This document shows positions 5,892 through 31,646 of a DNA stretch of 32,584 bases, piece after piece (the first letter of the stretch is position 1; every line of letters begins with the position of its first letter). The notes under the pieces are model-generated. The model worked only from the letters and a program-made list of their open reading frames with translations. It did no database searches and was not told the origin of the DNA. Origin of the DNA: Planctomycetota bacterium (GTDB taxonomy: Bacteria; Planctomycetota; MHYJ01; WSZJ01); NCBI GenBank assembly GCA_021413805.1, contig JAIOPR010000042.1, positions 1 through 32,584 on the forward strand, read 5' to 3'. The position numbers were made by a program, and so were the translations under genes.

Positions 5892-8800
5892 ATGAAGCGG
5901 CTCCTTTTCCTCGGATCGTTCCTTCTCGCCCTTGCCCTGCGCGTTTCGGCCGACGATTCGGTCTTCTGGCTCGACAAGGAATCGGCGGAGGCGGCGACGG
6001 CGAAACTGACGAGCATCCCGGACGCGAAGCGCTCGGCGGCGGACGAGGTGCGGCTCGGCTGGGCGCTGTTCCTCTACCAGAACGACGCCGACCAGGCGCT
6101 GGAGGAATTCAAGAAGGCGGCGGCGCTCGACCCGAAGTCCGGCGACGCGTGGGAGGGGATCCACACCGCTTCGCTGGCCCGCATGCGGAACGACATCGGC
6201 GCCGACGCCGTGAAGAACCTCGTGATGTCCGAGCCGGACTCGACGCGCACCGAGGCGCTTTTCCGTGTCGGCCGCATCCAGCAGAGCCTGTTCAACCAGT
6301 GGACCGTGCCGCAGCGCATCGAGTTCGCGAAGGAGCTTCTCGCGAAGACGAAGAACGCCTTCACGCAGTCGGCGCTTCATGAGTGGCTCGAAAACCTCTA
6401 CGAAACGCAGGTGAAGACGGACCTGGCGTTCGGGGAGTGGCAGGCGGAAGGGCACGTGAAGCGCTGGCAGACGATCGGGCTTTTCGGGCAGGGCGGCGCG
6501 GCGTGCTACGACGACGTGCTGGCGCCGGAGACGGAATTCAAGCCGGCGGCCGAGTATTCCGTGGGGCTCGCGAAGGCGAAATGGGGAGCGGCGGAGTACG
6601 AAGCGGGGGACACGGACGGTTCGGTCGAGACGCGGGCGTTCGTGAGCCGCGGGACGTGTTTCTTCGCCCACGCCGTGCTGACGGTCCCGGAGCAGCGCGA
6701 CGGTTTCATCCGGATCCGCACGACCATGAGCTCGAAGGTCTGGCTGAACGGCGTCCTCGTCGGCGAGAACGACCTGGTCCGGAACGAATCGGGAAGCGAC
6801 CGGTGGTTCGGGGTGACGTTCTCGAAGGGTGCGAACGTGCTGCTCGTGAAGTACGTGGCGCCGGGAATGATGTTCGCGCACGACGTGACGCTTCTGCACG
6901 CCGACGGCCGGGCGATGACCGACGTGGAGAGCGCGATCGTCGAGAAGGATCCCGACGTGACGCGGAACGGCAAGGAAGCGCGGCCCGCGAAGGTCGCGGG
7001 CGATGCCTATGACACGCTGGTGGCCAAGGCGAAAGACATCAAGGCGTGCACGCTTCGTGAAGCTGTGCTCGCGAGCCAGCTTCTCCAGATCGCCGGGTTT
7101 CCCGAGGACGCGGAGAGCGTCTGCAGCCGCACGTTCGAGCTCGGCTCCGGTTCGGCCTACGTGCAGTTCTTCCGCGGCGCGTTCATCGCCGACTACGAGT
7201 TCCTGCCGCCGTCGCGCCGCGCCAACATTTCGCGGACGCACCACGAGAGGGCCATCGCGCTCGACGCCCGGTTTGTGCCGTCGCTTCTGCAACTCGCCCG
7301 CGAGAACGCCGAGAAGGAGACCGAGAAGGCCGTGGACCTCCTCCAGCAGGTGCTCGCCGCGAATCCTTCGTGCGCCGAGGCGTGGAGCCAGCTCTCCGCG
7401 GTGCAGGGCTCGCTCGGGTGGCACGCGGAGCAGGTGAAATCGATGCGCAAGGCCGCGGAATGCTGCGGCGGCGAGTACTCGTACGCCGCGCAGATGGTCC
7501 GCGAGAATGCCATGCAGCAGAACTTCCCCGCCGCCTTCGAACAGATCGCGGCCATCAAGAAGGCGCAGGGGATGGAAGCCTACTGGGAGGAAATCGGCCT
7601 CCTCGCCCAGTCCGGACGCGTGGACGACCAGCTCGCCGCCCTCGAGAACTACCGCCGCCATTACCCGCGCAACGCCGAGGTCGTCCTCCAGATCGCGGCG
7701 CTTCGCGAACGCCAGGGCAAGCTCGACGATGCAGAAGCGCTGATCAAGCAGGCCAGCGCGCTGAATCCGCGGAACGGCCAGATCCAGCAGAGGCTGCTCC
7801 AGTTCTACATCGACAACAACCGGGTCGACCAGGCCCGTGCGCTGATGACCGAGGTCATGCAGGCGCCGGCTCGGCTCGGCGCTTACGACGAATCTTCGCG
7901 GCGTTACCTGTCGTTCCTCGCCGGCGAAGGCGACGACTGGACGAAGCCGTGGGAAGTGGACGTCGCGGCCCTCGTCAAGAACGCGCCCAAGCCGGATTCG
8001 TTCGGCAAGGCCAGCCACACCGCCGTCCTCCTCGAGCAGCGCCTCGTCCGCGTCATCGGCGCCGACTTCAAGTGGATCGAGGAAGACGAGCACCGCGTCA
8101 TCATGATCCTCTCCAAGGAAGGCGGAGAGCAGCTGGGCCAGCTCAACCTCGGCCGCGGCGCCTGGGAGAACTTCCGCCTCCGCGAACTCCGCGTCTTCAC
8201 CCCCGACGGCCGCATCCTCGAGGCCGACGACGCGCAGGACCGCGGCGGCATCCGGATGCCCGAACTGGAGAAGGGCGCCATCCTGGAGTATCGCGTCAGC
8301 CGCTGCCGCGGGCCGATCGGCGTGGACCAGCCCGTGTTCGCCATCGACGACCCGGGACCTTTCAGGCACTTCAATGAGCCCGTCCTCTGGACACGCTACG
8401 CCGTCATCGTCCCCAAGGGCGCGCCGTGCCGGCTCGTCACGACGGGCGGCGCCGCGGCGACGGTGACCGAGAGCGACTCGACGACGACGTGGGCGTGGGA
8501 ATCGCGTGATCTCACGGAGATCGAGGCGGAAGCGTCCGTCCCGCCGCCGGAGGAGTTCCTGCCTTCGGTGCGTTTCATGAGCGGCAAGCCCACGATGGAC
8601 CAGACGATCGAGGCGTTCCGGTCGCAGGGGATGGGGCTGGCGCTCACGAGGGACGTCGTGGCGAAGGCGGAGGAGCTGACCAAGGGCTGCGCGGATCGGG
8701 AAGCCAAGGTCCGCGCGCTGTACAAGTTCGTGGTGAGCGAGATCAAGGCCGGGAACAACCGGATCCCCAGCCACACGCTGGCCGAGAAGGAAGGCCAGGC

Positions 8801-9755
8801 CGACGACCTGTTCATGTCTCTCCTCCGCGCCGCCGACATCCCCTTCGGCGTGGCATTCGTCCGCGCGCCGAAGCCGATGTGGCGCGAGTACGATCCCGAA
8901 ATCGGCCTTCCGCCGTACCAGACGCCGATGTTCCTCGTGCACCTCGACAAGCGCGACATCTGGCTCTGGCCGGTGCGCTGGAACCCGTGGGGTGGCCTCC
9001 CGAACAACCTCTACGGCGGCGACGCGATCGTCGTCGAGGGCCGAAGCGTCTACTTCCGCGACGTGCCGTCGCTGCCGCTCGCGGAGCGCGTCGTCTCCGT
9101 GCGCCTCCACGCCAAGGTGGACGACCAGGCGGTCGCCGATGTCAGCGGGGCGCTCATCTTCTCCGAGGGCGTTGCCGGAATCGTCCGCAACCAGCTCGAG
9201 CAGGTCGTCGATCCCGCGCAGCTCAAGACCATCGTCCAGCAGCGCGCCAACATGTTCTTCCGCGGCGTCACCGTGACGGCCACCAAGGTCAGCGATTTCG
9301 ACCTCGACGACCCCGAGCTCGCGATCTCGTTCGAAGGAACCTGCACCCAGTTCGCGCAGCGCAAGAAGGACAGCGACAGGATCACCTTCAAGCCCGTCTC
9401 CCCGCCCCTCAACCTCTCGGCACAGCTCGTCCGCGAAAGCGAACGCAAGCTCCCGATGCGGACCTACTGGGCCCAGCAGGTCACTTCATGCCTCACCATG
9501 ACCGTCGAGCTCCCCGAGTTCGCCGACATCCGCATCCCCGAAAACGTCGCCCTCGCGACCGAATTCGGCAACTACCACCTCACCTGCGTCCTCGACGGCC
9601 ACACCCTCAAGATCGAGCGCCGCGCCGAGTTCAACCAGATGGACATCGCCCCCGAACGCTGGTCCGCCTTCGCCGATTTCTGCAAGGGGATCGACGACGC
9701 GGAGAAGCGGTCGGTGGTGCTGAGGGTGAAGGGGAAGGCGACGGGGGAGAAGTAG
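5892..9755 (+). CDS. Large secreted TPR + DUF3857/transglutaminase-fold protein, paralogue of the preceding gene, catalytic residues absent
   Basis: Signal peptide MKRLLFLGSFLLALALRVSA; KVWLNGVLVGEN matches KIWVNGKLSLET of neighbour; LFMSLLRAADIPFGVAFVR aligns with LFVTMMREAGEEANLVLVR. Confidence 0.8.
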   Translation: MKRLLFLGSFLLALALRVSADDSVFWLDKESAEAATAKLTSIPDAKRSAADEVRLGWALFLYQNDADQALEEFKKAAALDPKSGDAWEGIHTASLARMRNDIGADAVKNLVMSEPDSTRTEALFRVGRIQQSLFNQWTVPQRIEFAKELLAKTKNAFTQSALHEWLENLYETQVKTDLAFGEWQAEGHVKRWQTIGLFGQGGAACYDDVLAPETEFKPAAEYSVGLAKAKWGAAEYEAGDTDGSVETRAFVSRGTCFFAHAVLTVPEQRDGFIRIRTTMSSKVWLNGVLVGENDLVRNESGSDRWFGVTFSKGANVLLVKYVAPGMMFAHDVTLLHADGRAMTDVESAIVEKDPDVTRNGKEARPAKVAGDAYDTLVAKAKDIKACTLREAVLASQLLQIAGFPEDAESVCSRTFELGSGSAYVQFFRGAFIADYEFLPPSRRANISRTHHERAIALDARFVPSLLQLARENAEKETEKAVDLLQQVLAANPSCAEAWSQLSAVQGSLGWHAEQVKSMRKAAECCGGEYSYAAQMVRENAMQQNFPAAFEQIAAIKKAQGMEAYWEEIGLLAQSGRVDDQLAALENYRRHYPRNAEVVLQIAALRERQGKLDDAEALIKQASALNPRNGQIQQRLLQFYIDNNRVDQARALMTEVMQAPARLGAYDESSRRYLSFLAGEGDDWTKPWEVDVAALVKNAPKPDSFGKASHTAVLLEQRLVRVIGADFKWIEEDEHRVIMILSKEGGEQLGQLNLGRGAWENFRLRELRVFTPDGRILEADDAQDRGGIRMPELEKGAILEYRVSRCRGPIGVDQPVFAIDDPGPFRHFNEPVLWTRYAVIVPKGAPCRLVTTGGAAATVTESDSTTTWAWESRDLTEIEAEASVPPPEEFLPSVRFMSGKPTMDQTIEAFRSQGMGLALTRDVVAKAEELTKGCADREAKVRALYKFVVSEIKAGNNRIPSHTLAEKEGQADDLFMSLLRAADIPFGVAFVRAPKPMWREYDPEIGLPPYQTPMFLVHLDKRDIWLWPVRWNPWGGLPNNLYGGDAIVVEGRSVYFRDVPSLPLAERVVSVRLHAKVDDQAVADVSGALIFSEGVAGIVRNQLEQVVDPAQLKTIVQQRANMFFRGVTVTATKVSDFDLDDPELAISFEGTCTQFAQRKKDSDRITFKPVSPPLNLSAQLVRESERKLPMRTYWAQQVTSCLTMTVELPEFADIRIPENVALATEFGNYHLTCVLDGHTLKIERRAEFNQMDIAPERWSAFADFCKGIDDAEKRSVVLRVKGKATGEK

Positions 9756-20692: not shown

Positions 20693-22060
20693 CTAGAAAT
20701 CGACCTGAACGCGGATCACGAGCACGTCTTCGTGATCGAACCGGCGGTTGCCCACGACCAGCGGACGGATCGAGGAGCCGGTGTACTCGATGAACGCGTA
20801 CATCGCCGAGACGCGGACGTTCGGGTTCGGGTACCAGTTGACCCCGGCCGCGAACTCGTCCACCTTCTGCGCCGAATCCTGCTTCGAGATGATCCCGTCG
20901 CGGATCAGGTCGCCCGGGACATTGAAGCGGCTGTAGCGTGCCAGGACCTCGACCGCGCCGATGCCGCCAGCAGAGCCGAACAGCGGCTTGTTGACCGTCG
21001 GCCGATCCCAGGTCTTCGCTTCACCCGTGATGATCCACGACGCCGTCACCAGCCACGCCGAGTGGTTCGCATTCGCGCCGCGGCCGGTCTTGGTCGTGGA
21101 GCCCGGGAAGCGGTACGAATCGCGCGTCCACAGGAACTGGGCCTTCACGCCGATCGGCCCGAGGAGCCAGGCCAGCTCGGTGTTCACCCGGTAGCGGCTG
21201 CCGTCGAACCGCGCGAAATTCGCATTGGGGCCCTTCGCCACGAACGTCGTCTGCGAGGCGGGATCCGAGTACGTGTAGGGAAGCACGCCGGTCGCCAGGC
21301 CGCGCTTGCCGTAGTTCGCGTCCACGGCGATGTGGATGCCCTTGAGGAAATCGGATTCCATCGTCGCGAACGGCCGGAGCTGTGCGCGGAGGAAGATGTC
21401 CTTGTCGCTGTTGTTGTCCACACCGGCGCGGCCGGTGCCGTTCGAAACCATCACGTTGTAAGCGAAGATCTTTTCGACGATTTCCCCGTACACCATCGCG
21501 CCCAGCTCGTACCCGGGGACGAGCCTGTCGAGAAGGCCGCGCTCCGGCATGTCGATGAACAGCGTCGACTGCGTCTGGTCGATCGACATCGGCGCCTTGT
21601 ACTGCCCGACCTTGATCTTGAGGCAGCTGAAGCGCTCGAAGGACACGTAGGCATCGTCGATGGAGAAATTCGGCCCGGTCGAGGCGGCCTCAACGCGGAA
21701 CCCCCAGTCCTTGAAGATCTTTCCCTGCAGGTCGATCTTCACTTCGCGGAACGAGAAACTGTTGATCGAGATGCGCTCCGGGTTCATGAAGTACGCCCGG
21801 TAGTGGACGAGCACGCGTCCGCCGACATGCATCTCAAAGTTGCCGTCCTGGCTCTTCACCTGCAACCCGTTCTTGAAATACGCATCGATCTTGTTGCTTC
21901 CCGCGGCGGCCGGCGAACCCGGCTCCGGGGCCGCTCCCTCCGAGTCCTCCTTCACCTTCATCTTCGTCTCCAGCGACTTAACGCGATCTTCCAGCGTTTC
22001 GGCGCCTGCCAATCCCGCGAGGAAAAGGCACATCCCCAGCGTCGTCGAGATCCGGCTCAT
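20693..22060 (-). CDS. Phosphate-selective porin O/P-like outer-membrane protein
   Basis: Signal peptide; short coiled coil LEDRVKSLETKMKV; HVGGRVLVHYRAYFMNPE...REVKIDLQGKIFKDWGFRVEA...SIDDAYVSFERFSCLKIKVGQYKAPMSIDQTQS; C-terminal ...VDF. Confidence 0.85.
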   Translation of the reverse strand: MSRISTTLGMCLFLAGLAGAETLEDRVKSLETKMKVKEDSEGAAPEPGSPAAAGSNKIDAYFKNGLQVKSQDGNFEMHVGGRVLVHYRAYFMNPERISINSFSFREVKIDLQGKIFKDWGFRVEAASTGPNFSIDDAYVSFERFSCLKIKVGQYKAPMSIDQTQSTLFIDMPERGLLDRLVPGYELGAMVYGEIVEKIFAYNVMVSNGTGRAGVDNNSDKDIFLRAQLRPFATMESDFLKGIHIAVDANYGKRGLATGVLPYTYSDPASQTTFVAKGPNANFARFDGSRYRVNTELAWLLGPIGVKAQFLWTRDSYRFPGSTTKTGRGANANHSAWLVTASWIITGEAKTWDRPTVNKPLFGSAGGIGAVEVLARYSRFNVPGDLIRDGIISKQDSAQKVDEFAAGVNWYPNPNVRVSAMYAFIEYTGSSIRPLVVGNRRFDHEDVLVIRVQVDF

Positions 22061-22103: not shown

Positions 22104-22157
22104 AGGGTAGGAGGCGCGTGTTCAGGGGGGACGAGGCGAATGTTAAGAACGGGATAA
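22104..22157 (-). promoter_or_regulatory. Pho-box-like promoter of the porin gene
   Basis: Minus strand TTATCC-N5-TTAACA-N5-CTCGTC-N5-TGAACA-N9-TACCCT (third position degenerate). Confidence 0.6.
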
Positions 22158-22180
22158 ATCGAACCGCCGGGGACCGCGAA

Positions 22181-22234
22181 TTAACGGGGAATTCACGGGC
22201 GCTTTGCCGCCGTCGAACCCGTGGGACCGATGAT
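22181..22234 (+). promoter_or_regulatory. Pho-box-like promoter of the STAS gene
   Basis: TTAACG-N5-TTCACG-N5-TTTGCC-N5-CGAACC-N9-GATGAT. Confidence 0.5.
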
Positions 22235-22272: not shown

Positions 22273-22656
22273 ATGATCGACCTCGTGATCCGGACGGTGG
22301 TGTTCGGCGACGGGCAGGCGTGCGTCGAGCTGGAGGGCGTGCTGGACGGGAGGACGTCGGTCGAGCTGGAACAGGAGGTCGTGGAACTCCTCGAGCGGGG
22401 CCCGTGCCGGCTCGCCTTCGACCTCTCGAGGCTCTCGGTCATCACGAGCGCCGGCGCCGGGGTATTCGTCGGGACCGTCGTGATGACCCAGGAGCGGGGT
22501 GGCGCCATGGCGCTGGTCCGCCCGCAGCCGGCGGTGCGGCAGGTCCTCGAGATCCTCGGGCTCGGCGGCGTCTTCCCGATCGTGGACGACATGGAGGACG
22601 CGGTCCTCTCGATCGAACACCTCTGCCGCGTCAACCGCGGGTCCGCAGCCGGGTAG
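22273..22656 (+). CDS. STAS-domain protein (anti-sigma-factor antagonist-like)
   Basis: ACVELEGVLDGRTSVELEQEVVELLERGPCRLAFDLSRLSVITSAGAGVFVGTVVMTQERGGAMALVRPQPAVRQVLEILGLGGVFPIVDD. Confidence 0.88.
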   Translation: MIDLVIRTVVFGDGQACVELEGVLDGRTSVELEQEVVELLERGPCRLAFDLSRLSVITSAGAGVFVGTVVMTQERGGAMALVRPQPAVRQVLEILGLGGVFPIVDDMEDAVLSIEHLCRVNRGSAAG

Positions 22657-22660
22657 GCCT

Positions 22661-23344
22661 TCACGCCCCGGCCCGCGTCCCTTCGCGAAGCGATCGCGAG
22701 TGCCGCACGATCTCCCCCGTCACGAGGTAGATCGTGTCCTCCGCGATGTTCGTCACGAGGTCCGCAATCCGTTCCATCTCGCGCCCGATCCGGTACACCG
22801 TCAGCGCGGCGTCGATGTGCGCGGGAGATTCGCGAAGCGTCCTCCGTGCGGTGTCGGTGATCTCGCTGTCCAGCCGGTCGATCGCCTCGTCCGCCTGCAG
22901 CACCGCCCGCGCTTCTTCCACATCCTGGCGGCGAAGCGCCCGGATTCCGCGCGAGATGGCCTCGACGACGCGCGCCGCCATCTCGCCGGCCTGGGGCGGA
23001 AGAGAGAACGCGCGGTCCTCGAGGACAGCGTGGGTGAGACGCGCAACGTTGGTCGCGTGGTCGGCGATGCGCTCGAGGTCGTTGTTCACCTTGAGGACGG
23101 TCGCGAGGTAACGCAGGTCGCGGGCGACCGGTGCGTAGAGCGCGATGAGCTTGAGGCACTCTTCCTCGATCCGCACTTCCTCGCGATCAACATCCTCGTC
23201 CATCATCATCGCCCGCTGGGCCCGCGCTGCGTCGCCGGTGACGAGCGCGTGGACCGCATCCTCAACGCAGCGGTGCACGCGGTCCTCCTGCCTGAGGAGG
23301 AGTTCGTTCAGGGACTCGAGGGCCTGTGCGAAGTGCTTCGACAT
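22661..23344 (-). CDS. phoU: Phosphate transport system regulator PhoU
   Basis: VARDLRYLATVLKVNNDLERIADHATNVAR and YRIGREMERIADLVTNIAEDTIYLVTGE; two PhoU repeats. Confidence 0.95.
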   Translation of the reverse strand: MSKHFAQALESLNELLLRQEDRVHRCVEDAVHALVTGDAARAQRAMMMDEDVDREEVRIEEECLKLIALYAPVARDLRYLATVLKVNNDLERIADHATNVARLTHAVLEDRAFSLPPQAGEMAARVVEAISRGIRALRRQDVEEARAVLQADEAIDRLDSEITDTARRTLRESPAHIDAALTVYRIGREMERIADLVTNIAEDTIYLVTGEIVRHSRSLREGTRAGA

Positions 23345-23367: not shown

Positions 23368-24138
23368 TTAGCCGAATTTTCCGGACACGTAGTCTTCGGT
23401 TTCGCGCTTCTTCGGCCGCTGGAAGATCTCGCCCGTCGGGCCCTCTTCGACAATCTTCCCCATGAGGAAAAACGCGGTCCGGTCGCTGCAGCGCGCGGCC
23501 TGCTGCAGGTTGTGGGTGACGATGACGATGGTGTACTGCTTGCGGAGGTCGCGGACGGTTTCCTCGATTTTTGCGGTCGAGATCGGGTCGAGCGCGCTGG
23601 CGGGCTCGTCCATGAGGATGATCTCGGGGTCGTTCGCGAGCGTGCGCGCGATGCAGAGCCGCTGCTGCTGCCCGCCGGACATGTCGATCGCCGAGCGGTC
23701 CAGGCGGTTCTTCGCTTCTTCCCACATGTCCGCCTGCCGCAGCGCCCGCTCCAGGATGCGTTCCAGCGCCGCCTTGTCCCGCACGCCGGCCATGCGCGGC
23801 CCGAAGGTCACGTTCTCGCGGATCGTCATCGGGAACGGGTTGGATTTCTGGAAGACCATGCCGACTTTCTTGCGAAGCGCTTCCAGCGAAGTGCGGGGAT
23901 CGGCGATGTCTTCGCCGTCAACGAGGACGCGGCCGGACATACGGAAGCCGGGGATGACGTCGTTCATGCGGTTGAGGCAGCGGAGGAACGTGGACTTGCC
24001 GCAGCCGGAGGGGCCGATGAAGGCGGTGACCTGGCGGGCCGGGATGTCGAGGGAGACGTCCTTGAGTGCGTGATGATCGCCGTACGAGGCGTCGAGGTTG
24101 CGGATCGAGAGGGCGATGGTGTCGGTGCTCGTGGTCAC
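23368..24138 (-). CDS. pstB: Phosphate ABC transporter ATP-binding protein PstB
   Basis: [66 protein letters not shown]. Confidence 0.97.
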
Positions 24139-25733
24139 AGGGCGGACCCCCGGAAGCGTTTCTTGAGGCGGTTACGGAGGATGATCGCGACGAGGTTGAG
24201 GGCGAGGACGAGGAGGAGCAGCGCGAGGGTGCTGGCGTAGGTCATGGGTTTCGCGGCCTCGACGTTGGGCGACTGCATCGAGACGTCGTAGATGTGGAAG
24301 CCGAGGTGCGTGAACTTGCGGTCGAGGTGGAAGAACGGGAACGCGGAATCGACGAGGGGCTGGGGCGCGAGTTTCACGGCGGCGCCGAGCACCATGAGCG
24401 GCGCGACTTCGCCCGCGCCTCTTCCGATGGCGAGGATCATGCCGGTGAGGATCCCGGGCATGGCCTGCGGGAGCACGACGTGGCGGATCGTCTGCCAGCG
24501 TGTCGCCCCGAGCGCCATGGCGCCGTCGCGGCTCGCCTGCGAAACCGAACGGAGGCCTTCGGTCGCGGCGACGATGACGACGGGGACGGTGAGAAGCGCG
24601 AGGGTCAGGGCGCCCCAGAGGATCCCGCCTGTCCCGAACGTCGGGTGCCCGCGGTCCGCGAAGAACGCGCGGTCGATTCCCGCGCCGATCGTGTAGACAA
24701 AGAGGCCAAGGCCGAAGATGCCGAAGACGATGGAAGGGACGCCGGCGAGGTTCGCGATCGCGAGGCGGACGAGCTGGAGGAGGCGGCCTTCGCGGGCGTA
24801 CTCGTTCAGGTAGATCGCGGCGACTACGCCGAGCGGGACGGCCGCCAGCGTCATGACGACGACGAGAAAGAGGGTCCCCATGATGATGGGGAGGATTCCC
24901 CCCTCGGTGTTCGACTCGCGCGGCCGGGTGGACACGAACTGCCACGCCTGGGTGAGGTAGTGTCCCAGCTTCGCGAAGACTCCCATCGAGTTGGGCGCCC
25001 ACGCGCCGATTACGTTCACCGCGGGTGTCAGGACCACCGAGCCGTCGGACTGCCGCCACTCGATCGTGATCGCGCTCCCTTCGGCTTCAAGCTCCTTCCT
25101 GCGCTTCTCCAGCGACGCCAGCTGCGACCGGTCGCGGGCGATGTTCATCTCGTCCCGCACGGCTTCCAGCCTCGAACGCAGGTCGGCCCCGCGCGAGAGC
25201 GCTTCGGAAATTGAAACCGCGCCCTTGACGGCCCCCAGGGTGCCGTAGAGGCGACCGTATTCGGAACGGTCCACGACCCAGGCGTCGCGGGGGAAGGATT
25301 CGGCGGCGACATCGAGGTCGTCGACCCAGAGGAAGTCATTGGAGCCTGTGACTTCGCGGTGGCCGACGCGGAGGAGGCGGCGGCCGATGTGGGTGTTGCG
25401 GCCGGGAAGCTGCTTTTCGCCGCGGTCGCGGACTTCGCCGAGAAGGATCGAGCCGTCCTGGCGACGAAGCTCCACGATGCGGGAGGGCCAGAACTGCCCG
25501 AGTCCTTCGACGAAAGTGATGGAGAGGATGCCGACGAGCATGGCGGCGACGACGACGAGCCCGGCGGCGGTGGACCAGATCCAGGGGCGGCCGTGATTGC
25601 GGCTGGCGGGCTGGAAGACGGAGCCGGGTGCCGGAGTCGAATCGGAAGGCGCGGGAGGCGGCAGGGGCGGCGGCATTTCCGGCGCGCCGCGCTTCGTGGC
25701 CGCCGATCCTTCGAGGAGCTCAATTCCGTCCAT
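24135..25733 (-). CDS. pstA: Phosphate ABC transporter permease PstA with enlarged extracytoplasmic loop
   Basis: Start MDGIELLEG; permease motif [29 protein letters not shown]; about 200-aa non-TM insert after TM1; ATGA overlap with pstB. Confidence 0.92.
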
Positions 25734-27972
25734 ATTTCCTCCGGAGGCGCGTCCCGACGATTTCAGCCACGGTGTTGAGCGCGGCGGTGAACCCGAACAG
25801 GAGAAGGCCGGTGAGGAAGAGCACGCGGTAGAGTGAGCCGCCGACGGGCGCTTCGGGGATTTCGATCGCCATCGCGGCGGACATCGTGCGCATTCCATTC
25901 CACGGCGCAGGATCGAGGATCGGGGTGTTTCCCGCGGCCATGACGACGATCATGGTTTCACCGGCGGCTCGCCCGAGGCCGAGCACGGAAGCGGCGAACA
26001 GCCCGGAAGCGGCGGCGGGGAGGATGACGTGGCGGACGGTCTGCCACCGCGTGGCACCGAGGGCCAGCGAGGCGGTGGTCATGGAAGCGGGGACGTTGGC
26101 GAGAGCGTCCTCGGCGATCGTGAACACGACGGGGATGACCGCAAATCCCAGCGCGACGCCGACCATGAACCCGTTGCGCAGGTCGTAGTGAATATGGAGC
26201 TTCTCGAACAGCCACTGCCGGAAATCGCCGTGGAACAATCCGCGCTCGACAGGGCCGGAAAGCGCTGTGGCGAGCGCGACGGTCGCCAGCAGGGTGACGA
26301 GGGCGCCGGCGAGCTCGAGGCCGGGGACCGGCCGCGCGCCCGGTTTTTCGGTGAGGCGCCCGCCAAGGGCGACGATTCCCGCGAACACGAACGGGAACAG
26401 CGTCCCCCCGACGAAAATCCCGCAGAGCGCCCGCTCGGCGAGCGGAGCGAGCCACAGCGCCGCCACCATGCCGACCACCACGCTCGGGATCCCCGCCATC
26501 AGCTCGATCGCCGGCTTGACCCACGACCTCAGGCTCGCCGGGGCGAAGCGCGAAACGTAAATCGCCGCGGCGAAGGCCACGGGGATCGAGAACAGAAGCG
26601 CGTACAGCGTTCCCTTCAGCGTCCCGAAAATCAGCGGCCACAGCGAATACTTGGGCTCCGATTCCTGCGTCCCCGAGCTCGACTGCCAGACCAGCTCCGG
26701 TTCCGGGTAGCTCTCGTACCAGAGCGGGGCGAAGAGAGCCCGCGCCGTGACGTCGGGGTAGGGATTCTGGATCGTCCAGGTCCGCAAGCCGTCGTGCCAC
26801 GCCCCCAGCTCGCTTCCTGTGCCCCCGAACGCCACCCGCTTCGCCGGAAGCGGCACGGGCGGCTCGATCGCGATGTTCCGCTGCTCCGTGGTCCCGTGGT
26901 AGACCGCGACGCCGCCCGAAGCGTCCCCGGCCGCGAAGCACTTGTTTCGCGGGCTCGCAGCGACCGAGGTCGCCGCGGCGTGGAGGGCGGGGAACGTGCG
27001 GGCCTTGAGGAAGAGCAGTCCTCCGGGGGTCACGCGGACAGGTCCGTCCTTGGTCACGTGCTTCGAGTGGTCCTGGTCGCGGACGACCACCGATTTCCCC
27101 GCCGGCACCCGGTCGCCCAGGACCTGCGCTTCTGTGCTGCCCGAATTCGTGAGCGTCACATGCCGCACACGCATCCAGCCGAGCACGGCGCCGCGGTCGT
27201 CCGCGGTGACGAGGGTTTCGTCGCCGAGGAGGAACGCGAGGGCCGTGATGCGGCTGCTGGCCGCGGGAAGCGTCTGGGTCCTGCGAGTCTCGGTCAGGTC
27301 CTCGACGTTCCAGATTTCGACTTCGCCGGAGTTGCGCGCGACTGCCAGGGTTTTTGCGTCGTTGGAGAGTGTGATGGCGATCGCGTCGCTGATTTCGAGC
27401 GGTGTCTCCACCGCGTCGCCGAGCCCGGCCGGGCCGCACACCGTGACGATCCCGCCGGCGAGCCGCGCCAGCTTTCCGTGCCCTTCACCGTCCCGGGCCG
27501 CGCAGATCGAGTCCGGCCGTACGGCCGAAAACGTCTGTTCGTCCAGGGCCAGCGCCGCCACCGCGCCGTCGACGCGCTTCTCCACCCGGACCAGCGCAAA
27601 CCGGCCGTCGTCGAACACGATTCCCGTCGTCCGCGAAATGCCGGCGTTCGCCGCGGCCACCGGGCGCGCCTTTGCGTATCCCGGGATTTCGACCTTCACC
27701 GGGCTTCCGTTTTCGAGCCGCCATACCCCTTCACCCGTCACCCACCACGGCTCGGCGGTCCCTTCAACGAAATCCATCGCGAGGCAGGCCGCCTTGTCCC
27801 CCCGGACGACAGCGACCGAAGCGCGCGCCGGGAGAAAGAGGGGGATGGCCACGTAGGCGAGAAAGACGAGGATGCCGAGCACGCAGCACACCACCAGCAA
27901 TCCAGCGCCGGGGATCACTTTCGCGGCGATGCGATCCAGGACGATCGCCTTCAGGTTGGGTTGGTGGGCCAT
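25720..27972 (-). CDS. pstC: Phosphate ABC transporter permease PstC with beta-propeller/WD40-like extracytoplasmic insert
   Basis: TM1 then about 350-aa insert with ITLSNDAKTLAVARNSGEVEIWNVEDL, ITALAFLLGDETLVTADDRGAVLGW; permease motif [24 protein letters not shown]. Confidence 0.9.
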   Translation of the reverse strand: MAHQPNLKAIVLDRIAAKVIPGAGLLVVCCVLGILVFLAYVAIPLFLPARASVAVVRGDKAACLAMDFVEGTAEPWWVTGEGVWRLENGSPVKVEIPGYAKARPVAAANAGISRTTGIVFDDGRFALVRVEKRVDGAVAALALDEQTFSAVRPDSICAARDGEGHGKLARLAGGIVTVCGPAGLGDAVETPLEISDAIAITLSNDAKTLAVARNSGEVEIWNVEDLTETRRTQTLPAASSRITALAFLLGDETLVTADDRGAVLGWMRVRHVTLTNSGSTEAQVLGDRVPAGKSVVVRDQDHSKHVTKDGPVRVTPGGLLFLKARTFPALHAAATSVAASPRNKCFAAGDASGGVAVYHGTTEQRNIAIEPPVPLPAKRVAFGGTGSELGAWHDGLRTWTIQNPYPDVTARALFAPLWYESYPEPELVWQSSSGTQESEPKYSLWPLIFGTLKGTLYALLFSIPVAFAAAIYVSRFAPASLRSWVKPAIELMAGIPSVVVGMVAALWLAPLAERALCGIFVGGTLFPFVFAGIVALGGRLTEKPGARPVPGLELAGALVTLLATVALATALSGPVERGLFHGDFRQWLFEKLHIHYDLRNGFMVGVALGFAVIPVVFTIAEDALANVPASMTTASLALGATRWQTVRHVILPAAASGLFAASVLGLGRAAGETMIVVMAAGNTPILDPAPWNGMRTMSAAMAIEIPEAPVGGSLYRVLFLTGLLLFGFTAALNTVAEIVGTRLRRKYGRN

Positions 27973-28020: not shown

Positions 28021-29010
28021 CTACTTGTTCAGCTTCTCCAGCTCTTTCGCCACGATGGCGGGCGGAAGAGGCATGTAGCCGTCCTTGACGGCGATCTCCT
28101 GTCCTTCGTGCGACAGGATGAATTTCACGTACTCGCGGACGACCGCGTCCGGGCCTTTGCCGGGCGGGTTGTCGATGTACACGAGGAGGTAACGGGCGAG
28201 GGGGTACTTGCCGGACAGCGCGTTCTCGTAGGTCGGCTTGAAGACCTTGTCCGAGAATGTCTTGGCCAGCGGGATGGCGCGGACGCCCGGCGTGATGTAG
28301 CCGATGCCGCCGTAACCGATCCCGTAGAGGTCCTCAGCGACGCCCTGCACCACCGCGGCGGTGCCGGGCTGCTCCTTGACGGACGACTTGAAATCTCCCT
28401 TGGCGAGGGCGTGCTCCTTGAAATAACCGTAGGTCCCGCTGGCGCTGTTGCGGCCGTACAGGCTGATCGGCTTGTTCGCCCAGTCGCCCGTCAGTCCCAG
28501 CTGGCCCCACGTCGTGATGTCTTCCGTGTACCCGGCCTTGCGCGTCTTCGAGAAGATCGCGTCCACAAGTTCCAGCGTCAGGTTCGCGAGCGGGTTGTCC
28601 TTGTGCACGACGACCGCGAGCGCATCGATCGACGTCTTGATCTCCAGCGGCTTCGCGCCCTTCTTCGACGTGTACGTGTCCAGTTCCTCCGGCTTCATCG
28701 GCCGGCTCATCGGGCCGATGTTCGACGTCCCCGCGGCCAGCGCGGGCGGCGCCGTCGCCGAGCCCTTGCCCTCGACGCTGACGTTCACCTCGGGGTAGAT
28801 CTTCTTGAACTCTTCCCCCCACAGCGTGGACATGTTCACCATCGTGTCCGACCCGACGACGTTCACGTTCCCGCGCACGCCGTCCACCTTGGCGTACTTG
28901 GCGATCGAGTCGTCCACCTTCACCGCATCCGTGCTGTCGGCCAGGACTGCCACCGTGGCCACCGAGCTTCCAAGAAGCGCGGAAAGCCAGAAACGACCGT
29001 TGAGCTTCAT
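28021..29010 (-). CDS. pstS: Phosphate-binding protein PstS
   Basis: VNVVGSDTMVNMSTLWGEEFKKIYPEVNVSVEGKGSATAPPAL...ISLYGRNSASGTYGYFKEHAL; GGAGGA before ATG at 29010. Confidence 0.95.
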   Translation of the reverse strand: MKLNGRFWLSALLGSSVATVAVLADSTDAVKVDDSIAKYAKVDGVRGNVNVVGSDTMVNMSTLWGEEFKKIYPEVNVSVEGKGSATAPPALAAGTSNIGPMSRPMKPEELDTYTSKKGAKPLEIKTSIDALAVVVHKDNPLANLTLELVDAIFSKTRKAGYTEDITTWGQLGLTGDWANKPISLYGRNSASGTYGYFKEHALAKGDFKSSVKEQPGTAAVVQGVAEDLYGIGYGGIGYITPGVRAIPLAKTFSDKVFKPTYENALSGKYPLARYLLVYIDNPPGKGPDAVVREYVKFILSHEGQEIAVKDGYMPLPPAIVAKELEKLNK

Positions 29011-29044
29011 CTTTCTTCCTCCAATCAATGGGTTGTTGGAGGGG

Positions 29045-29098
29045 ACGGTAGGCGCCGAGGGTGAAGCGCGTGTGTAGCGATGGTTAAGGTCGGGTAAA
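29045..29098 (-). promoter_or_regulatory. Pho-box-like promoter of pstS
   Basis: Minus strand TTTACC-N5-TTAACC-N5-TACACA-N5-TTCACC-N9-TACCGT; hexamers exactly 11 bp apart. Confidence 0.75.
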
Positions 29099-29731
29099 TT
29101 CCGGCGCCTTGACGGGGGCGGGGGCGAGATTCGCCAGCTGGGCGTCGTGGACGCGCGACAGCGCCACCTGCGCCGTCATCGCGCCGATGAACGCCGTGAA
29201 CATGTCCCATTGCGTGTCCCAGGGGTCTCCCTGGGTCCCGAGGAATGCCTCCGCGGCCGTGCCGCTCGCGACGGCCGTCCACCACTCGATGAACTCATAG
29301 ACGGCGCTGAACGCCAGGCAGACGCTGGTGACGAGGACAAAGAGCCATTTGCCGCGGCGAAGCGGCGAGGTGCGGAGGAGCAGTTCGCGGACGAGGATGG
29401 CGGGGACGAAGCCCTGGGCGAAATGACCGAGGCGGTCATAGGGGTTGCGGGAGAGGTGCAGGAGGTCTCGCACCCAGTACCCCGGCGGGACCTCTGCGTA
29501 GGTATACCGTCCCCCGACCATCAGGATCATCCCGTGGATCGTGAGCAGGACGCACACCAGCGGCGTCAGCGGGAATCGTTTCCGCGTCGCGATCAGGATC
29601 GGGGCCCCGATCAGCGCCGGCGCGACCTCGAGGAACCACGTGAAACGGTCCTTCGGGTGGATCCCGGACCACACCAGCACCGCGGCGGCAAGCGCCAGGA
29701 GGACCGGCAGGAGGCGGGGACTCTGCTTCAC
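29084..29731 (-). CDS. DUF2238 / YjdF-like inner-membrane protein
   Basis: RNPYDRLGHFAQGFVPAILVRELLLR, VYEFIEWWTAVASGTAAEAFLGTQGDPWDTQWDM; GTG start chosen (alternative ATG at 29764). Confidence 0.85.
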   Translation of the reverse strand: MKQSPRLLPVLLALAAAVLVWSGIHPKDRFTWFLEVAPALIGAPILIATRKRFPLTPLVCVLLTIHGMILMVGGRYTYAEVPPGYWVRDLLHLSRNPYDRLGHFAQGFVPAILVRELLLRTSPLRRGKWLFVLVTSVCLAFSAVYEFIEWWTAVASGTAAEAFLGTQGDPWDTQWDMFTAFIGAMTAQVALSRVHDAQLANLAPAPVKAPEFTRP

Positions 29732-29762
29732 TCGCGCGGATCCTACCCGTAGACTTCCCCGC

Positions 29763-31646
29763 ATGAGCGCAAAATGGACCGGACACTTCGAAGCACGGAC
29801 GGTGACGCCGGAAAATGCGGTGGCCTGCGTGAAGCGCGGTTCGCGCGTGTTTGTCGGCTCGGGGTGCGCGGAGCCGGTGCTCCTGGTGGCGGCGCTCGCG
29901 GAGCGGCCGGACGTCGAGGACGTCGAGGTCCTGCACATCATGACGGTCGGCCAGGCGCCGTACGCCAAGGCGACCCAGACGCGCCGCTTCAGGGCCAACG
30001 CATTCTTCATCGGCTCGAATGTCCGGGAAGCGGTGGCGCACGGTGCGGCGGACTACACGCCGATGTTCCTCTCGGAAATCCCGGGGCTGTTCCGGACGCG
30101 GCGCGCTCGGCTCGACGTCGCGCTGGTCTCGACGACGCTTCCCGACGCGCACGGGTTCGTGTCGCTGGGGGTGAGCGTGGACGTCGTGAAGGCCGCGGTC
30201 GAGTCGGCGGACATCGTGGTCGCGGAGGTCAACCCGACGATGCCGCGGACGCACGGGGCAAGCTTCGTGCACGTTTCGGACATCGATTTCTTCGTGCGCA
30301 ACGACGCCCCGATCCTCGAGTCGGCGCCCGACCCGGTCAATGAGGTCACGATGAAGATCGGGCAGTTCTGCGCGAGCCTCATCGATCACGGCGCGACGCT
30401 CCAGATGGGCATCGGCGGCATCCCGAACGCCGTCCTCGCGAACCTCGGCGACAAGCAGGACCTCGGCATCCACAGCGAAATGTTCTCCGACGGGATCATC
30501 GAGCTCATCGAAAACGGTGTCATCACCGGCCGCCGCAAGACCCTCCATCCGCGCAAAGTAGTCACTTCATTCTGCAAAGGCTCGCGCCGCCTCTACGACT
30601 ACGTCCACGACAACCCGCTCTTCGAGTTTCTCCCGACGGAGTTCGTCAACGACCCGTTCGTGATCGCGAAGAACAACGCCATGATTTCCATCAACTCCGC
30701 GCTCCAGGTGGACCTGACCGGGCAGGTCTGCGCCGATTCCATCGGCACCCGTTTCTATTCCGGCATCGGCGGCCAGGTCGATTTCATCCGCGGCGCCGCG
30801 CGTTCGCCCGGCGGGCGCAGCATCATCGCGATTGAATCCACGGCAAAGGGCGGCACCCTGTCGCGCATCGTCCCCGTCCTCGCCGAGGGCGCCGGCGTCG
30901 TGACGACCCGCGGCGACGTCCACACCGTCGTGACGGAATACGGGATTGCCGAGCTGAAGGGCCGCACCGTCCGCGAACGGACGCTCTCCCTGATCAGCAT
31001 CGCGCACCCGGATTTCCGCACCGACCTTCTCGCGGTCGCCAGGAACCGGAATCTCGTGGCTGCGGACCAGGTGCCGTGGCCGGCGAAAGGCCGGCCGTAC
31101 CCGGTCGAGCTCGAGGCACGTGAGATGGTCGGCGGCACCGAGGTCTTCCTGCGGCCGCTTCGCCCTGCCGACGAAAAGCTCCTGCGCGAGTTTTTCTACT
31201 CGCACTCGCCCGAGACCATTTACCAGCGCTACGGCGCGCCCCTGAAGTCGTTGACGCCGCGCCAGATCCAGGAGCAGTGTGCCCTCGACTACGACACCGA
31301 GATGGCGATCGCGGGGTTTGTGCACGACGGCGAAGGCGAACGCATCGTCGCCCTCGGCCGTTACGAATTCGACCGCGCCTCGGGCCTCGCCGACATCACC
31401 TTCACCGTCGCGGAGAATTTCCAGGGGCGCGGCCTGGGCACCTGGCTTTTCCAGCGGCTCGTCAAGGTCGCCCGCGAACGCGGCATCAAGGGCTTCACCG
31501 GCACCGTCCTCGCCGGCAACGTCCGCATGATGGGCATCTTCCACAAGAGCGGCGAGCCCGTGGAGTCGCGCCTCGAGGACGGACGGTATCGCGTGACGGT
31601 GATCTTCGAGAAAAACCGGGGTGAGACCGAGCCCGTGAGCCGTTAG
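29763..31646 (+). CDS. Acetyl-CoA hydrolase/CoA-transferase family protein fused to C-terminal GNAT acetyltransferase domain
   Basis: LQMGIGGIPNAVLANLGDKQDLGIHSEMFSDGIIELIENGVITG; GGQVDFIRGAARSPGGRSIIAIESTAKGG; C-terminal FTVAENFQGRGLGTWLFQRLVKVARERGIKGFTGTVLAGNVRMMGIFHKSG. Confidence 0.92.
   Translation: MSAKWTGHFEARTVTPENAVACVKRGSRVFVGSGCAEPVLLVAALAERPDVEDVEVLHIMTVGQAPYAKATQTRRFRANAFFIGSNVREAVAHGAADYTPMFLSEIPGLFRTRRARLDVALVSTTLPDAHGFVSLGVSVDVVKAAVESADIVVAEVNPTMPRTHGASFVHVSDIDFFVRNDAPILESAPDPVNEVTMKIGQFCASLIDHGATLQMGIGGIPNAVLANLGDKQDLGIHSEMFSDGIIELIENGVITGRRKTLHPRKVVTSFCKGSRRLYDYVHDNPLFEFLPTEFVNDPFVIAKNNAMISINSALQVDLTGQVCADSIGTRFYSGIGGQVDFIRGAARSPGGRSIIAIESTAKGGTLSRIVPVLAEGAGVVTTRGDVHTVVTEYGIAELKGRTVRERTLSLISIAHPDFRTDLLAVARNRNLVAADQVPWPAKGRPYPVELEAREMVGGTEVFLRPLRPADEKLLREFFYSHSPETIYQRYGAPLKSLTPRQIQEQCALDYDTEMAIAGFVHDGEGERIVALGRYEFDRASGLADITFTVAENFQGRGLGTWLFQRLVKVARERGIKGFTGTVLAGNVRMMGIFHKSGEPVESRLEDGRYRVTVIFEKNRGETEPVSR

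Follow-up and report, generated by a model that had tools for sequence, protein, structure and literature searches.

Genes and promoter arrays of the locus

The window, that is, the whole stretch of 32,584 nucleotides analysed here, is contig C281 of the assembly of an uncultured planctomycete (G000; 4.57 Mb in 377 contigs, 82% complete). A second genome of the same genus, G001, is a Planctomycetia MAG. The part of the window considered here holds a porin gene, a gene for a STAS-domain protein, phoU and a pst operon, together with three predicted promoters:

20693 to 22060, minus strand: porin, outer-membrane protein of the Porin_O_P family (Pfam PF07396, 7.9e-30)
22104 to 22157, minus strand: predicted Pho-type promoter of the porin, TTATCC-N5-TTAACA-N5-CTCGTC-N5-TGAACA-N9-TACCCT (same arrangement at the orthologous porins of G001, G002, G003 and G004)
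22181 to 22234, plus strand: predicted Pho-type promoter of the STAS gene, TTAACG-N5-TTCACG-N5-TTTGCC-N5-CGAACC-N9-GATGAT (matrix score; kept in G001, L068)
22273 to 22656, plus strand: STAS-domain protein, anti-sigma-factor-antagonist-like, 127 aa (Pfam PF01740, 4.2e-16; NCBIfam TIGR00377)
22661 to 23344, minus strand: phoU (Pfam PF01895)
23368 to 24138, minus strand: pstB (ABC_tran match and tblastn synteny)
24135 to 25898, minus strand: pstA, permease (Pfam)
25720 to 27972, minus strand: pstC, permease with a WD40-like insertion (Pfam)
28021 to 29028, minus strand: pstS (PBP_like_2)
29045 to 29098, minus strand: predicted Pho-type promoter of pstS, TTTACC-N5-TTAACC-N5-TACACA-N5-TTCACC-N9-TACCGT (kept in G001, L098)

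The porin, whose family match is to the phosphate-selective Porin_O_P type and whose selectivity is putative, and the STAS gene diverge from a gap of 212 bp. On its other side the STAS gene is convergent with phoU, the two facing stop codons (22656/22661) being separated by 4 bp, and the same spacing is found in G001. Two minor features of the region are also recorded. The WD40- or beta-propeller-like stretch of PstC covers residues ~194-267, N-terminal to the permease domain. Beyond pstS, two reading frames on opposite strands share sequence, namely a DUF2238 frame (29084-30010, minus strand) and the first part of a frame that resembles acetyl-CoA hydrolase/acetyltransferase (29541-31646, plus strand); this overlap region is kept in sister genomes.

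Each of the three arrays consists of four hexamers at an exact 11-bp pitch, followed by 9 nt and a −10-like hexamer, and each is directed into its own gene. The first-pass annotation had proposed that the porin, STAS and pstS genes share one promoter architecture; all three arrays are present exactly as it described them, and the shared Pho-type design is also backed by a matrix built without the STAS site, by conservation and by the same box before pst-phoU-phoB-phoR operons (see below). The units are not all of equal quality: the third unit of the porin (CTCGTC) is poor, and the third and fourth units of the STAS array (TTTGCC, CGAACC), together with its −10-like GATGAT, depart from the other promoters, whose hexamer is TAC(C/T)NT. 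The porin and STAS arrays lie on opposite strands, and a distance of just 23 bp separates them (22157 to 22181). The segment 22104-22234 is best explained as a divergent pair of predicted Pho-regulated promoters, which forms part of an overall reading that we regard as probable.

The Pho box in this lineage

Alignment of upstream regions gives a common layout, in which four 11-bp-phased TT(A/T/C)AC-like units are followed by 9 nt and TANNNT, before pstS in G000 and G001 and before the orthologous porins of G000 to G004. Four sister genomes contain a second pst operon, arranged pst-phoU-phoB-phoR, whose terminal genes are PhoB-like and PhoR-like; in all four, the operon is preceded by an array, the 9-nt gap and then TAACTT, TAATCT or TACGCT, and in the three sister genomes in which it was tested, the best match of the operon's regulator is PhoB. 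The window's own assembly yielded no such PhoB/PhoR pair, most simply because it is incomplete. It does contain Pho-box-like arrays upstream of ppk2 (C245, L146:3407-3460) and of a Ppx/GppA-CHAD operon (C243, L143:4117-4170), which suggests that polyphosphate metabolism is a candidate part of the regulon. Since the array recurs at pstS, pst-phoU-phoB-phoR, porins, ppk2 and ppx, it is the Pho box of this lineage, as established by comparative sequence evidence; binding of PhoB and induction at low phosphate are what we infer for these boxes. Two paralogous porins located elsewhere were inspected (G002 L069 and G004 L073), and neither has the full box.

The earlier description of the locus as part of a small Pho regulon was right about the boxes and too modest about the size, given that similar boxes stand before ppk2, ppx-CHAD and a CBS-domain gene. 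The last of these belongs to contig C22, where a second divergent pair of Pho-box-like arrays (L142:8798-8889; genes 7545-9477) lies between a 106-aa reading frame with no Pfam match and the CBS-domain gene, with CHAD- and PhoX-family genes nearby. One of the two arrays served as a training site for the matrix, and the CBS-domain gene opposite it has the weaker one.

The matrix was trained on 12 sites, none of them the STAS site, which include pstS (G000, G001), the porins (G000-G004), the pst-phoBR operons of the four sister genomes and the C22 site. Over 367,082 positions of own-genome sequence, the STAS site ranks fourth with a score of 22.1, while the top score in 60 Markov-simulated windows is 16.9. 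Without its −10 hexamer, in which the initial TA of the other promoters is missing, the STAS site has a score of 27.1. Matches outside the training set are found upstream of pstS in G012 and G010 and upstream of porins in G013 and G009, all members of the class, and the new boxes reach other families.

These results bear on the notion that a loose TTNAC pattern has simply been matched by chance. A bare three-unit pattern allowing at most one mismatch gives six matches genome-wide and six for its reversed control, that is, no excess, and a naive scan would thus fail the test by motif scan that the first-pass annotation had itself put forward, a test that the full matrix and the conservation do pass. 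Yet five of the six matches fall at pstS (two, overlapping), at the STAS gene and at one divergent gene pair near PhoX-/CHAD-family genes, and the full matrix, with conservation, goes far past the controls and finds boxes it had never seen at pstS and porin genes in other families of the class. Matrix score, conservation in G001 and the Markov controls together disfavour chance, which we consider very improbable. The specificity of the array comes from its location, the four-unit matrix and conservation, and not from a count of the bare pattern.

The STAS promoter and other readings of the intergenic region

In G001, the sequence upstream of the STAS gene is TTCGTT-N5-TTCACG-N5-TTCACA-N5-CCAACC-N9-GATGAT, in which the phase, the 9-nt gap and the GATGAT hexamer are all kept. 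Between the two genomes, 22 of 30 positions are identical in the units and −10, against 9 of 24 in the spacers (Fisher p = 0.009). Taken alone, the G001 site has a matrix score of only 9.5, a value reached somewhere in ~17% of window-sized random sequences (~65,000 positions, both strands). The STAS promoter is the weaker one: its −10 and later units depart from the pattern, and the corresponding site in G001 scores low. As a promoter prediction, Pho control of the STAS antagonist is nonetheless well supported.

Regarding the distribution of the arrangement, conservation of the STAS gene beside phoU and the porin, which the first-pass annotation had proposed to test in relatives, is seen in one of them, G001, where the porin/STAS/phoU order is kept. 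In G002 to G004 the interval from the porin to the acetyl-CoA hydrolase locus lacks the whole STAS-to-pstS block; the porin there adjoins genes that in G000 are neighbours of pstS, and it retains its own Pho box. No STAS gene was found beside phoU outside G000 and G001 among the best 30 phoU loci of 296 phylum genomes (1.5-kb flanks) and 11 further pst loci. A contig search with the porin as query gave no match, and one with phoU gave G001 only. The STAS gene thus travels with this pst operon within one genus, with two known cases.

The proximity of the two arrays, the atypical −10 of the STAS promoter and its lower scores could also be accounted for if the STAS-directed units were the outer extension of one long PhoB array serving the porin, with a separate, constitutive promoter for the STAS gene. 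We find this unlikely, given that these units face the STAS gene on the strand opposite to the porin units, that their 9-nt distance to the hexamer is kept in G001, and that the porins of G002-G004 have a box of their own where there is no STAS gene at all. Slightly less likely still is that the chief effect of the STAS transcript is to lower phoU expression at low phosphate, as a convergent antisense RNA, with the protein in a secondary role. PhoU is a negative regulator of the Pho response, which would suit such an effect, and the 4-bp tail-to-tail gap in both species leaves no terminator space between the stop codons; this spacing points to antisense transcription into phoU as an alternative or additional effect, and mutual antisense transcription of the two genes is possible. 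However, the STAS reading frame is about 50-52% identical between G000 and G001 and its functional serine is kept, which indicates selection on the protein. The preferred reading is still that of two divergent Pho promoters, one of which would drive the STAS gene.

The STAS protein and a proposed link to partner switching

The protein consists of a single STAS domain, with a match to PF01740 and a score over the TIGR00377 cut-off; it is SpoIIAA/RsbV-like and matches the SpoIIAA structures 1auz and 1th8. Its Ser59 aligns with the phosphorylated serine of SpoIIAA, Ser58 in that family, and the serine is also present in G001. By its sequence, it is an antagonist-type protein. The single domain and the serine at the phosphorylation site are shared with SpoIIAA and RsbV; unlike theirs, the planctomycete gene has no adjacent SpoIIAB/RsbW kinase or phosphatase, lies between a porin and phoU, and has a Pho box upstream. 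An adjacent cognate kinase is usual for such antagonists, not obligatory.

The partner anti-sigma kinase that the earlier annotation had suggested might be sought elsewhere has candidates in the genome, which encodes HATPase kinases and SpoIIE phosphatases at other loci. RsbU-RsbW-RsbV-type modules are located on C155, with a STAS paralogue, and on C324, and more HATPase genes on C59 and C41; on the last two contigs a protein search gave no STAS match, and the HATPase flanks examined contain no matrix match above 9. A partner is therefore possible in principle, and the binding of an anti-sigma kinase by the STAS protein, with its output, is put forward here as a prediction.

Earlier work has described Pho boxes built of 11-nt repeats whose core is GTTCACC-like (PMC4415409, PMC7244524), and the planctomycete TTNAC core resembles the GTTCACC unit of Streptomyces (PMC4415409, PMC7244524). 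As in the PhoB/PhoP promoters of E. coli, Bacillus subtilis and Streptomyces, 11-nt direct repeats stand upstream of the −10 with no separate −35; unlike in these bacteria, the planctomycete box has usually three to four TT(A/T/C)AC units and a fixed 9-nt gap to TAC(C/T)NT or TAANNT. Similarly, the pst operon of the window has the transporter genes and the box of pstSCAB-phoU-phoBR operons, but it lacks phoBR, and a STAS gene faces phoU instead. What is unusual here is the predicted regulon member and not the Pho box, which is ordinary: in line with the impression that a STAS protein is not a standard part of the Pho regulon, no report of a STAS antagonist as a member appears in the portion of the open-licence literature that was searched.

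The mechanism proposed is as follows. At low phosphate, phosphorylated PhoB would bind the four head-to-tail 11-bp units, which stand in for the −35, and would recruit RNA polymerase to the −10 hexamer that follows after 9 nt. One promoter would drive the porin, for uptake across the outer membrane, and the other the anti-sigma-antagonist-like STAS protein. The additional STAS protein would most likely bind a HATPase anti-sigma kinase from another locus of the genome, its activity being controlled through phosphorylation of Ser59, and phosphate starvation could in this way become an added input to partner switching. Since the STAS gene sits beside uptake genes and has the same type of promoter, phosphate shortage probably feeds a second control circuit through this switch protein. 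Taken as a whole, divergent Pho promoters with a STAS feed into partner switching are the explanation we judge likely; the stronger proposal, that an orphan STAS antagonist made under PhoB control feeds phosphate starvation into a partner-switching sigma or kinase circuit of a planctomycete, is more tentative, and we place it somewhat below even chances. A partner-switching regulator would then be wired directly to phosphate starvation, which would join two kinds of control that tend to be investigated separately, and, if true, such wiring is undescribed in the part of the literature that was searched. Apart from this proposal, the comparison defines, at the level of sequence, the Pho box of a planctomycete lineage that has received little study, and this box can serve to predict the regulon.
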